A DNA stretch of 23,994 nucleotides, from positions 1-23,994 of the IMG/VR virus record IMGVR_UViG_3300046616_000026; one strand, 5' to 3'. Position 1 is the stretch's first letter. Each line of letters starts with the position of its first letter. The stretch is from a virus. A program made the position numbers and the translations under genes. Of the stretch, positions 314 through 3,219 are shown in pieces. Under the pieces are notes generated by a model. It made no database searches and was not told the DNA's origin. It was given only the letters and a program-made list of their open reading frames with translations.

Positions 314-489
314 TAGTGGTACTCCGGATCGAAATCGTCAGCGGACGGGACGCCGAAACGCACCCGCCGCTCATGAAGGATGTGCGGCACGTAGTACGGA
401 TGGAACTCCCAAAGGGGCTGACGAAGGTAATCGTCGTCAGCGCCCTTCAGGATTCGTACAGCCGTTGCCCGCTGCCACTTACTCAGCAT
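313..489 (-). CDS. Small protein of unknown function, 58 aa
   Basis: I place the start at an ATG overlapping the last 11 bases of the gp3-like gene. The frame is open further upstream, but that stretch is Ser/Arg-rich and antisense-like, so the longer form is unlikely. The protein begins [16 protein letters not shown] and ends in an acidic tail (DDFDPEYH). The centre is rich in aromatic, His and Arg residues (residues about 27-45). There is no recognisable domain. It sits between the gp3-like gene and the 95-aa gene with overlaps on both sides, so the three are probably translated from one message. Function unknown. Confidence 0.6.
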
Positions 490-1207
490 CGTCGGCAATC
501 GCCGCGCCGTACGCCTTGACGATGTTGATGACGGGCTTGGTGTACGAAACGAGCTTGTTCCGCATCGGGCCCTTCGTCGGCGTGTACTCGACGTACTCAA
601 GCTCAAGCTCGCCGAACGCCGTCTGCCCGACACGGTCAAGCGCGTCTTCCGCCTCGTGCAGAACCTTCATGAGCGTCCATGCGCCGGTCTGGAACTTGAA
701 CTTCCCAAGCTCCGGATCGTCAGCGAGACGGAACGTCACCGTGATGGAAGGGTTCGGGCCCTGGTAGTCCTTCGCAGCCTGCTTCCGCTCAGCGAAGAGC
801 GTCGGGCACCCGCACGGCTCGCCGGACTTCTCCTCCGGGCTCTTGAACTCGAAGCCGTCGCAGTGGTGCGTCAGCTTGCCGTTCACCCACTGCTTCATGT
901 CCCAGTCGATGCCGTCGAGCTCGATGATGACGGGAAGCTTCGTCGCCTCAGTGAAGATGTCGATGAAGTTCTCGGACGCCGACTCCTCATTCTCGGCAGG
1001 CGTGCCGCCGAAGAGCTGAGCCACCGCGTCCGCTACGGTCTTGTCGCCGGTCGAGAAGCGCCACTCAGACAGCGCGACCGGGCGAGGCTTGCGACCCGTC
1101 TCGTCCATGTAGCCGCTGTGCAGCCGGCCAACGGTGTCGTCGGAGTAGGTGGGGCGCTCCTTCGGCTTGTTCTCTTCGTCCTGCGCCCAAATGCTCTGAC
1201 GTGCCAT
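479..1207 (-). CDS. phiC31 gp3-like protein (recombination directionality factor family), 242 aa
   Basis: I chose the ATG giving [20 protein letters not shown] because AAGGGAG lies nine bases upstream; the frame is open further but without a ribosome site. Length matches phiC31 gp3, the directionality factor that binds the serine integrase and switches it from integration to excision. Assignment is by remembered resemblance and size, not by a search. The middle holds a His/Cys cluster (HH at 114-115, Cys116, Cys132, Cys134) that could bind metal; relatives are often annotated as metal-binding or hydrolase-like. A C-terminal alpha/beta region follows. No integrase gene lies in the window, so an RDF role here is inferred. 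The start region is preceded by a long leader with two possible hairpins and the GTNACCGACTC motif. Confidence 0.65.
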
Positions 1208-1301
1208 AGAGGGTTGCTCCCTTGGTAGGTGAGCGGGGAGGAATGACCACTCCCCGCTCATCCGCTGTGCTCTGTCACTTGTGGGTAAGGGAGTCGGTGA
1301 C
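1205..1301 (-). promoter_or_regulatory. Leader with SD-sequestering hairpin, gp3-like gene (site A)
   Basis: In transcript order, the motif GGTCACCGACTC runs into CTCCCTT (1293-1287). This is perfectly complementary (7 bp) to the Shine-Dalgarno AAGGGAG of the gp3-like gene (1223-1217). Between the arms lies an independent 11-bp perfect hairpin (1230-1240 with 1250-1260, 9-base loop). Together they form a bulged or three-way structure that would hide the ribosome site. The motif and the SD/anti-SD layout recur at four other genes. Base pairing is seen directly; regulation is inferred. Confidence 0.55.
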
Positions 1302-1320: not shown

Positions 1321-1375
1321 TACAAAGCACAAAACAAAGAAGCCCCCCAATGCCCTTGTGAGGCACTGAGGGGCT
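1321..1375 (-). terminator. Rho-independent terminator after the micro-ORF
   Basis: On the minus strand, AGCCCC (1375-1370) pairs with GGGGCT (1346-1341). The stem continues with CA/TG and TGCC/GGCA pairs, interrupted by wobbles, around a loop TCACAA. A T-rich tail (TTCTTTGTTTTGTG) follows. It lies 20 bases after the 21-residue micro-ORF and before the gp3-like leader, so it would separate the nuclease/ligase operon from the gp3 operon. Confidence 0.75.
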
Positions 1376-1394
1376 CCGGTAGGGGAGTTGGGTG

Positions 1395-1460
1395 TTAACC
1401 GCCGCAAGATGTGCACAGCCCAGACTTCTGGGGGTTACACAGACAGTTGGGACCGGTCAT
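1395..1460 (-). CDS. Four-cysteine micro-ORF, 21 aa
   Basis: The ATG overlaps the TGA of the 61-aa gene (ATGA) and GAAGGG lies about 11 bases upstream, so coupled translation is plausible; the stop is TAA. The peptide starts [14 protein letters not shown] and ends LCTSCGG. It has a CxC pair and a CxxC pair eight residues apart, a spacing compatible with one zinc ion or two disulfides. It is the last coding unit before an intrinsic terminator, which argues against chance antisense reading. It is too short for family recognition. It could be a zinc-knuckle peptide acting with the ligase or nuclease upstream, or a fortuitous frame. Confidence 0.45.
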
Positions 1461-1642
1461 GCGCGGCCCTGCCCTTCGGAGAAGATCAAGTTGGTCAGCT
1501 TCCTGCGGATAGCGGCTAGTTGCGGAAGCTCTTCGGGGTCGAGCGGGACAGCGTCCGCGAACTCTTCAAGAAGCTCGACCACTTCGGCCCGCTTCAGATG
1601 CACGCTGTAGGGGTGCATACGGTTCGTGTGCGTAGCAAGCAC
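1457..1642 (-). CDS. Small helical protein of unknown function, 61 aa
   Basis: I chose the GTG two bases after the RNA ligase stop because GGGAGG, within the ligase's last codons, lies at ideal spacing. A downstream ATG (giving MHPYSVHLKRAEVV) is the alternative. The body is predicted helical with hydrophobic heptads (AEVVELLEEFADAV, then LPQLAAIRRKLTNLIF), consistent with a two-helix hairpin or a dimer. It resembles small regulators or antitoxin-like folds in general shape only; no family is claimed. It is tightly packed between the RNA ligase and the 21-aa ORF, implying one operon. Confidence 0.6.
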   Translation of the reverse strand: MLATHTNRMHPYSVHLKRAEVVELLEEFADAVPLDPEELPQLAAIRRKLTNLIFSEGQGRA

Positions 1643-1644
1643 GC

Positions 1645-2271
1645 TCAGACCTCCCACTTGCCAGCGTCGTTGTTGTCGAGCGTCACCTTGAACACCTTGC
1701 CCACCGCGCTGTGGTAGACGCACACCCCCTCAGGGTCCATGAAGCCGGGTGCAGCGAGCGAGCCCTTCGTGCGCAGGTCGCGAAGCTCGTTCGTCACAGC
1801 CTCTTCACTGAACGGGCCCTGATACAGAACAGGAACGCGACTGAGCCACACGTCGCCCACAAGCGCGTGAGTCGTCGCGAAGCGGTGCGTGTTGAACAGC
1901 GAGAAGCGGCGTTCGTCGAGCCCGTAGCCGCGCTGAATGCCCCTGCCCCACCACTCGCCGTAGTGCAGCCCCTCACCCAGCAAGCGCACAAGGTGCTCAG
2001 CGTTGCCGTACACCCAGCCAGCGAAGCCGTAGTTGTCCGTCGTCTTGCCCGGAGTGATGATGCGCTTGCGTGACTGGGCGCTCACCACGTAGCGGACTCC
2101 GTCAACGACTACGCTGTACGACTCGGGCGGGAACGCGTCAGACTCGGCCAGCGAAGCGCCCAGCACGCTGACGTGAATCGCCGCGTTCGTGCCGTCGAGC
2201 TTCTCCGTGACCGTGATGTCCCGGAACAGTCGCGCCGTCTTCGGCCACGCCGTGAACTCGTGCTGTGCCAT
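1645..2271 (-). CDS. RNA ligase family protein, 208 aa
   Basis: The covalent nucleotidyltransferase motifs appear in order: motif I EKLDGTN with the adenylated lysine at K24; a basic strand SAQSRKR near 64-70; motif III HYGEWWGRG with the GE at 105-106; motif IIIa FSLFNTHRF near 123-131; motif IV PEGVCVY with E181; and motif V GKVFKVTL (191-198). These match the ATP-dependent RNA ligase (Rnl2-like/REL) catalytic core, which joins RNA ends through protein-AMP and RNA-adenylate intermediates. At 208 aa it has essentially no extra C-terminal domain. The ATG follows GAAGGGAG at seven bases. A 14-bp perfect hairpin covers that ribosome site. Likely role: repair of RNA cleaved by host defences; a DNA-nick role cannot be excluded. 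Confidence 0.85.
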   Translation of the reverse strand: MAQHEFTAWPKTARLFRDITVTEKLDGTNAAIHVSVLGASLAESDAFPPESYSVVVDGVRYVVSAQSRKRIITPGKTTDNYGFAGWVYGNAEHLVRLLGEGLHYGEWWGRGIQRGYGLDERRFSLFNTHRFATTHALVGDVWLSRVPVLYQGPFSEEAVTNELRDLRTKGSLAAPGFMDPEGVCVYHSAVGKVFKVTLDNNDAGKWEV

Positions 2272-2277
2272 GCGGCA

Positions 2278-2327
2278 ACTCCCTTCGTGGTTTCTCTTTC
2301 CTGAGCACCACGAAGGGAGTCGGTAAC
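2278..2327 (-). promoter_or_regulatory. SD-sequestering hairpin, RNA ligase gene (site B)
   Basis: A perfect 14-bp inverted repeat (2278-2291 with 2307-2320, 15-base loop) places the Shine-Dalgarno GAAGGGAG entirely in a stem, seven bases before the ATG. The upstream arm follows directly on GTTACCGACTC, beside the stop codon of the nuclease gene. There is no U tract, so this is not a standard terminator. It is the clearest member of the five-site family. Confidence 0.7.
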
Positions 2328-3172
2328 TAGCGCGCCCGTCGCTGCGTACCGGTCACGAGCTTGCCCGTGGTCTTCTTCGCAATGGGCTTGCCGATGACCC
2401 GCTTCGAGCCCTCACGGTCCCAATCGAACGTGCCGCGAAGCCGCAGGAACTCAGCGAACACGGTCTCGTCCGCGACCACGGGCTTGAACGCCCAAGTCTC
2501 GTCCGTGATGTGCAGCACCGCAGCGCCGTCGAACTCCGGCATCGGCTCCCGGTTGCCGTCGGCGTCAATGACGAAGTCGGCGTTCATGTACGCGGCCATT
2601 TGCAGCGCCACGTCCGGGTATGTGGCCTTCGACGTCTTCCAGTCGCCCATGATCAGGTGTTTCACGCCGGAACGGTCCGGGGTCGGCATGCCGTTCTCGT
2701 CCAGCCACACGTACAGCCACACGTCGAATGAGCCGGCGTACCCGTAGGTGTCCGACCACGCCACATCTTCGGCGCGTACGAACTCCGGGTTCACAGCGGC
2801 CAGGAACTCCCGGAAGTGCTGCACGTACGGTTCAAGGTCGCTGCGGACCCTGCCGACGTACTCACCACGGATGAGCCGCTCAAACAGGTCATGCGCTTCG
2901 GAGCCGATGTCCGCGCGCACCTTCGTGTATCGGCGAGCCGCCCCGCTGAGGTACTGAATCGCGCCCTCACGGTCCCGCGCTGCCATGTCTGCCACGAAGT
3001 CGATGGAATCAACGGCCAGCGTCGCAGCCATTTTGCCGTTCCACGGGCCTAGGAAGTTCTGCTTCGGCAGCATGCCGATAACCGACGTCACGCCCGGGTG
3101 GATAATCTCGCGGTCAACCGGATGGACGTAAAAGCGGCTTCCGCCCCTGTAGATCGTGCGTACCTTGCCCAC
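2327..3172 (-). CDS. PD-(D/E)XK nuclease, Cas4/RecB-like exonuclease, 281 aa
   Basis: Numbering is from the GTG start. The RecB/Cas4 signature is present in order: GSEAHDLFE with His94; YAGSFDVW with Asp150; IMGDWKTSKA with Asp177 and Lys179; and the QxxxY helix QMAAY (Gln191, Tyr195). This is the metal-dependent nuclease core of phage exonucleases used in recombination and replication. I see no four-cysteine Fe-S cluster, unlike true Cas4. The C-terminus is basic (KRVIGKPIAKKTTGK), plausibly DNA-binding. Start choice is uncertain. GTG at 3172 has AAGGGA six bases upstream; the ATG at 3178 abuts the Shine-Dalgarno and the GTG at 3196 has none. A 254-base leader with nested repeats precedes it. 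Confidence 0.8.
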   Translation of the reverse strand: MGKVRTIYRGGSRFYVHPVDREIIHPGVTSVIGMLPKQNFLGPWNGKMAATLAVDSIDFVADMAARDREGAIQYLSGAARRYTKVRADIGSEAHDLFERLIRGEYVGRVRSDLEPYVQHFREFLAAVNPEFVRAEDVAWSDTYGYAGSFDVWLYVWLDENGMPTPDRSGVKHLIMGDWKTSKATYPDVALQMAAYMNADFVIDADGNREPMPEFDGAAVLHITDETWAFKPVVADETVFAEFLRLRGTFDWDREGSKRVIGKPIAKKTTGKLVTGTQRRAR

Positions 3173-3178
3173 GTGCAT

Positions 3179-3219
3179 TCCCTTCGTTGCTGTCACTCAG
3201 CAGTAAGGGAGTCGGTGAC
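3179..3219 (-). promoter_or_regulatory. SD-sequestering hairpin, nuclease gene (site C)
   Basis: GTCACCGACTCCCTT is followed by an interrupted hairpin. TCCCTT (3210-3205) pairs with the Shine-Dalgarno AAGGGA (3184-3179), and CTGCTG pairs with CAGCA on the loop side, with small bulges between. It is less perfect than the site upstream of the RNA ligase but has the same motif, polarity and distance to the start. Confidence 0.5.

Follow-up and report, generated by a model that had tools for sequence, protein, structure and literature searches.

A very likely gene for a 21-residue four-cysteine micropeptide, missed by annotators, between the exonuclease and recombination directionality factor genes of Streptomyces phages

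The window, i.e., the whole 23,994-nt stretch of IMG/VR virus record IMGVR_UViG_3300046616_000026 analyzed here, contains a row of minus-strand genes in which a very short open reading frame (micro-ORF) is embedded. In the order in which this strand is read, the features are:

2327 to 3178, minus strand: exonuclease (phrog_298, assigned by PHROG), free of cysteine; relatives are annotated as Cas4 family exonuclease; constant upstream neighbour
1645 to 2271, minus strand: RNA ligase (PF09414, assigned by Pfam and PHROG), upstream in the same apparent operon; optional neighbour
1457 to 1642, minus strand: preceding small gene of 61 aa with a GTG start two bases past the ligase stop; relative of gp25 (RemusLoopin, Heather, Euratis, Sebastisaurus)
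1457 to 1460, minus strand: ATGA start-stop overlap, with the micro-ORF ATG (1460-1458) on the TGA (1459-1457) of the 61-aa gene
1395 to 1460, minus strand: putative micropeptide gene of 21 codons (from the ORF listing, the cysteine-blind and exonuclease-seeded scans and the codon comparison)
1339 to 1377, minus strand: intrinsic terminator-like hairpin of 17 pairs with a T tail, starting 17 nt past the micro-ORF stop
479 to 1207, minus strand: phiC31 gp3-like recombination directionality factor (RDF; PF18897, assigned by Pfam); constant downstream neighbour

The micro-ORF ends with TAA (1397-1395), and its product carries cysteines at C6, C8, C16 and C19, i.e., with the spacing CxC-x7-CxxC. 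The overlap and the hairpin bear out the original prediction of a 21-residue, four-cysteine frame that sits on the preceding stop and ends just before a terminator. From the ATGA geometry, the micro-ORF would be translationally coupled to the preceding 61-aa gene, whose last 53 residues gave no significant Pfam or PHROG match.

We scanned IMG/VR with a pattern that left the cysteines free (G-P-N-x-hydrophobic-x-N-P-Q-x-x-G-hydrophobic) and obtained 22 contigs. All four cysteines were present in 22 of 22, in agreement with the conservation of cysteine codons in relatives that had been proposed as a check. In the 16 distinct nucleotide sequences of this set, window included, cysteine occupied 64 of 64 cells at codons that the search had left free, written as TGT 19 times and as TGC 45 times. 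The frame is under selection at the protein level: mean pS was 0.66 and mean pN 0.13, the latter somewhat underestimated because the pattern fixed non-cysteine residues (GPN, NPQ, G), though not the cysteine codons. Shifted frames showed the reverse, with pS 0.11 and pN 0.33 over 120 pairs, or 0.17 and 0.30 over the 28 of these 120 pairs that were stop-free, and synonymous change exceeded amino-acid change in the micro-ORF frame only. Variable sites numbered 6, 5 and 18 of 19 each at codon positions 1, 2 and 3. A broader comparison of 33 micro-ORF rows comprised 24 distinct nucleotide cores with synonymous variation in cysteine, leucine, proline and glycine codons, most of these residues being fixed by the search pattern used there. 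The peptide usually measures 20-22 residues, and the residue after CxxC is G, A, S or Q; members that depart outside the cysteines are L100, with CLCDPQ, and L012, with CLCNPNN (loci are referred to by L numbers). Frameshifts or lost cysteines in relatives that keep the flanking genes would have spoken against a gene. We looked for them and found none, and copies were whole or absent in the sets examined. Judged from these sequence comparisons, a real gene for a 21-residue four-cysteine micropeptide that annotators missed is very likely, and its conservation within a group of Streptomyces phages looks strong.

Six named Streptomyces phages carry the micropeptide without annotation: RemusLoopin, Euratis, AbbeyMikolon, Nesbitt, Heather and Sebastisaurus. 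As had been anticipated for a frame that gene finders drop, it is absent as a feature from the records of all six. tblastn matched 6 phage records (RemusLoopin, Euratis, AbbeyMikolon twice, Nesbitt and Heather), whereas the Sebastisaurus copy was overlooked by tblastn and found by reading the DNA, so that tblastn counts are lower bounds. A scan of IMG/VR with the motif pattern matched 27 contigs; 25 belong to the family, and L017 and L029 were set aside as chance matches. Among the 26 new loci of a further scan, 25 were likewise chance matches and L100 was the sole true addition. The pattern was also run on a collection of 84,980 genomes, where it matched four contigs. Two of these, L034 and L036, were chance matches and set aside, and the other two were family members, both from Streptomyces and with exonuclease and RDF alongside. 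The same two came up as the only matches in 392 Streptomyces genomes. A host origin was hence rejected, as just two Streptomyces genomes have the gene, each next to exonuclease and RDF; these matches indicate a phage-borne gene. Spread by plasmids was rejected as well, since tblastn gave no match.

Seeding searches with neighbouring genes made the pattern of presence and absence visible. With the exonuclease as the only seed, 30 loci were recovered. The micropeptide was present with 12 of 12 motif residues in 16, cut off in one and degenerate in none, and the other 13 had exonuclease and RDF but at most five motif residues. Redundancy affects both groups, as 4 of the 16 carriers are near-copies sharing the window's exonuclease and 5 of the 13 non-carriers share one exonuclease sequence. 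Seeding with the RDF gave 11 loci, of which 11 had the motif; all lie on contigs already found by the motif, and the set reaches close relatives only. The micropeptide was absent from the region read in 14 named phages, namely phiC31, phiBT1, TG1, Vash, Lilbooboo, Samora, Shawty, Dubu, phiSASD1, Shady, Rowa, Samy, Attoomi and Janeemi, and their regions point to a dispensable, accessory gene. After 37 of 81 loci had been dropped as duplicates or for a missing flank, 44 exonuclease rows remained for comparison, with one contig represented by two cuts, L031 and L082. The micropeptide is present in 27 and absent in 17 of them, which is not a frequency because the motif itself served to retrieve most member loci; 16 of 29 uncut exonuclease-seeded loci is the fairer figure. 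On the exonuclease tree, micropeptide presence requires at least 6 changes of state, compared with a mean of 13.6 and a minimum of 8 in 500 label shuffles. The tree thus indicates that the micropeptide is inherited, yet was gained or lost several times.

Wherever the micropeptide occurs in this table, it lies in the order exonuclease - micropeptide - RDF (27 of 27 rows, counting L035, a repeat of L028, and Nesbitt beside AbbeyMikolon). The constancy of this location could stem from common ancestry and from recombination at conserved neighbours rather than from a functional link. The gene directly in front varies: it is gp25-like in many loci, the exonuclease in AbbeyMikolon, L021 and L037, where the micro-ORF start overlaps the exonuclease stop codon, and others elsewhere. 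We surveyed 27 loci, near-copies left out and L100 not included, taking the last ATG, GTG or TTG ahead of the first cysteine as the start and any frame of at least 50 codons between stops as a preceding gene. The start overlapped the preceding stop in 22 (20 as NTGA, 2 as TGATG) and lay 2 nt past it in three (L007, L014, L033); near the micro-ORF starts of the remaining two, L020 and L024, we found no such stop. Some of the preceding frames may not be genes, because GC-rich DNA readily yields frames of at least 50 codons, and the overlap is firm only where the preceding frame has relatives, as for the gp25-like gene and the exonuclease. C-terminal extensions occur in L007, L014 and L033. L020 (8909-9007) and L030 have in-frame N-terminal extensions to 33 and 45 aa, respectively, in which the cysteine module may have been fused to a further small protein. 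A copy of the motif in L012 (3254-3295, minus strand), NCLCNPNNSGLCSRC, is TGATG-coupled to a 92-aa ORF; within the 5.2-kb stretch read of this 47.5-kb contig, neither exonuclease nor RDF was detectable. A neighbouring ORF there is, as we presume from its look, thyX-like. In L069 (around 5030), the gp25-like gene is kept and the place of the micro-ORF is held by a different ATGA-coupled frame that starts MTREEALNKATEHV.

The hairpin that begins so closely behind the micro-ORF stop in the window is strong, a 76-nt stretch at this site folding at -33.7 kcal/mol with z -3.8. The micro-ORF could hence encode a leader or ribosome-arrest peptide, where translation of the cysteine-rich frame controls the following terminator and the RNA event matters rather than the peptide. 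Arrest peptides can show conservation at the amino-acid level. We surveyed a single terminator motif at the other loci. It was close behind the micro-ORF in only 3 of 24 rows (the window, L022 and L028; 26 rows were given, two of them without RDF), and by eye also in L011, a row without RDF. Ahead of the RDF, it was found in 9 of the 24 micro-ORF rows, and about 120-185 nt ahead of the RDF also in 9 of 16 loci that have no micro-ORF. These positions indicate that the terminator goes with the upstream region of the RDF rather than with the micro-ORF. Moreover, in many other loci another frame follows soon after the micro-ORF, and the mixed use of TGT and TGC argues against a leader peptide. An attenuator role was rejected on this one-motif survey, in which the terminator was neither regularly right behind the micro-ORF nor tied to it, and we regard the leader-peptide reading as improbable.

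The RNA ligase was one of two neighbours named at the outset as a possible partner of the micropeptide. In support of a partner subunit, both genes share one apparent operon in the window, and a ligase accompanies the micropeptide in 11 of 27 rows, against none of the 17 rows that lack it (Fisher p 0.003, with rows related by descent). Its side varies, however, with 4 upstream and 7 downstream, and 16 of the 27 micropeptide rows have no ligase in the locus. Relatives of the ligase were found in 81 phage records (E limit 1e-5), nine of them from Streptomyces: RemusLoopin, Sebastisaurus, Heather, GiJojo, LuckySocke, Alone3, pSt2308 and BRock twice. Three of the six named carriers, RemusLoopin, Sebastisaurus and Heather, thus have a ligase, and the carriers Euratis, AbbeyMikolon and Nesbitt lack one at this limit, because they are outside the nine Streptomyces records. 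Conversely, the other 72 of the 81 ligase records, those of Arthrobacter and Mycobacterium phages included, gave no micropeptide match in the tblastn search that also missed Sebastisaurus. We dropped an obligate partnership, because the ligase is optional, stands on either side and is missing in three carrier phages at the above limit, and consider a ligase subunit highly improbable.

A partnership with the adjacent nuclease, the other proposal, stands on a constant neighbour, the exonuclease being present in 27 of 27 micropeptide rows; it falls short in that the exonuclease also occurs without the peptide. Cas4 nucleases hold a four-cysteine iron-sulphur cluster within a RecB-like nuclease. 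The micropeptide might accordingly be an accessory subunit that gives the exonuclease in trans the cysteine cluster which true Cas4 has in cis, with the cysteines in a separate 21-aa ORF instead of inside the nuclease. In line with this, the matched part of the exonuclease has no cysteine in 43 of 44 rows, and a Cas4-type iron-sulphur cluster is hence not expected in it; the above-mentioned overlaps of the micro-ORF start with the exonuclease stop would also fit. However, the exonucleases of the 17 peptide-less rows are likewise without cysteine, apart from a single one in Janeemi, so that the exonuclease seems not to need a cysteine cluster. Cysteine supply as a necessity was therefore rejected, as the exonuclease is cysteine-free whether the peptide is present or not, and we assign the accessory-subunit reading a low probability.

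With its constant downstream neighbour, the peptide might also be a modulator of excision, in contact either with the RDF or with the serine integrase, at the zinc domain to which the RDF binds. In phiC31, gp3, the RDF, binds integrase via the zinc domain (PMC5814800), and all 11 loci seeded with the window's RDF carry the peptide. Speaking against it, these 11 are close relatives only, 13 exonuclease-seeded loci have an RDF without the peptide, and the L012 motif stands in a stretch without detectable RDF or exonuclease. An excision modulator is hence improbable in our view.

The explanation that we favour, and hold to be reasonably probable, is an accessory, co-translated C4 metal-binding micropeptide that would act on a phage or host protein, in analogy to lambda genes located between exo and xis. 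In this model, a genuine accessory phage gene would encode the four-cysteine peptide. Its transcript would run from the exonuclease towards the RDF, and ribosomes finishing whichever gene precedes, the 61-aa gene in the window or the exonuclease in AbbeyMikolon, would go on to the micro-ORF by translational coupling. The invariant cysteines of CxC-x7-CxxC would most likely coordinate a single metal ion, probably of zinc, and the metal would give the NPQ[KR]xG loop the shape of a small knuckle, which may bind a phage or host protein during excision or early in lytic growth. With four invariant cysteines and a conserved NPQ..GL loop in a 21-mer, a single metal site, probably for zinc, is the simplest reading. 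The arrangement of a C4 zinc finger, four conserved cysteines in two close pairs, recurs in the 22 contigs of the cysteine-blind scan, and zinc binding is plausible. Classical zinc ribbons use CxxC, from which the CxC at one end of the micropeptide differs, and this counts against a metal site. AlphaFold gave no confident fold for the 31-aa version of L007 (pLDDT 53.9), and searches with the micropeptide matched no Pfam or PHROG family (0 families), the best PDB match having E = 5.

Bacteriophage lambda offers a parallel. Its exo-xis interval contains seven ORFs without assigned function. One of them, the TraR homologue Orf73, keeps the four cysteines forming a C4 zinc finger in TraR; Orf73 inhibits host promoters, and lysogens with Orf73 yield 3- to 4-fold more phage (PMC9239242). 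Like this member of the TraR/DksA family, the micropeptide has four cysteines and is encoded by a small gene flanked by those for an exonuclease and an excision factor. In contrast, TraR measures 73 residues compared with 21, and TraR/DksA proteins combine CxxC-17-CxxC with N-terminal aspartates, which the CxC-x7-CxxC peptide lacks, as it lacks a Pfam match. We hence take the comparison as a works-like analogy only. Stand-alone, very small proteins with four cysteines are also found in Haloferax volcanii as C(P)XCG one-domain zinc-finger micro-proteins, and for one of them, HVO_0758, all four cysteines are reported as essential for folding (PMC10716476). These proteins are cellular, have fewer than 70 residues and carry two C(P)XCG motifs, whereas the micropeptide is phage-borne with one CxxC and one CxC. 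Closer to the locus, phiC31 gp2 is a small gene in the same exonuclease-RDF interval; phiC31 and phiBT1 have gp2 and TG1 has gp24 there, related to RemusLoopin gp26, in place of the micropeptide.

Beyond the favoured explanation, and doubtful as it seems to us, the peptide might be a C4 knuckle some 21 residues long that ranks among the smallest stand-alone metal-folded virus proteins. It would be swapped as a unit between upstream partners in the exonuclease-RDF interval of phiC31-like phages and, as lytic growth begins, switch a host or phage machine (RNA polymerase, exonuclease or integrase/RDF). The N-terminally extended versions of L020 and L030 would then carry this knuckle as a C-terminal tag.

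Our searches of publications on small phage genes, zinc or CXXC small proteins, phiC31 early genes and phage ribosome profiling found no naming of this gene, and for the names of the carrier phages just a taxonomy report. Fremin et al. 2022 reportedly describe predicted phage small-gene families, by title overlooked small phage genes, and their catalogue may list the family without a name. With the micropeptide, hand-annotated actinophage genomes gain one more gene, in the interval beside the RDF of phiC31-type integration systems. As 21 residues are cheap to synthesise, metal binding and partners are directly testable. In general, cysteine-blind and neighbour-seeded scans, as used in this work, provide a simple test for micro-ORFs below gene-finder limits.

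Two further elements recur around these loci. Small membrane proteins with a single span and an APC...RC motif are encoded near the micro-ORF in L003, L004, L005, L014, L021, L030, L033 and L037. The AbbeyMikolon protein of this type may start further upstream than annotated, as a longer frame extends across the micro-ORF stop. The Euratis protein has a relative in 62 Streptomyces phage records, Likavirus included; with 62 records and the micro-ORF absent in the three Likavirus regions read, this protein was rejected as micropeptide partner. The second element is the motif GT(C/T)ACCGACTCCCTT, which stands between early genes in the window (1287-1301, 2313-2327 and 3205-3219, minus strand) and is possibly an operator, promoter or processing element. 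It recurs in many phiC31-like loci, with the micro-ORF present or absent.
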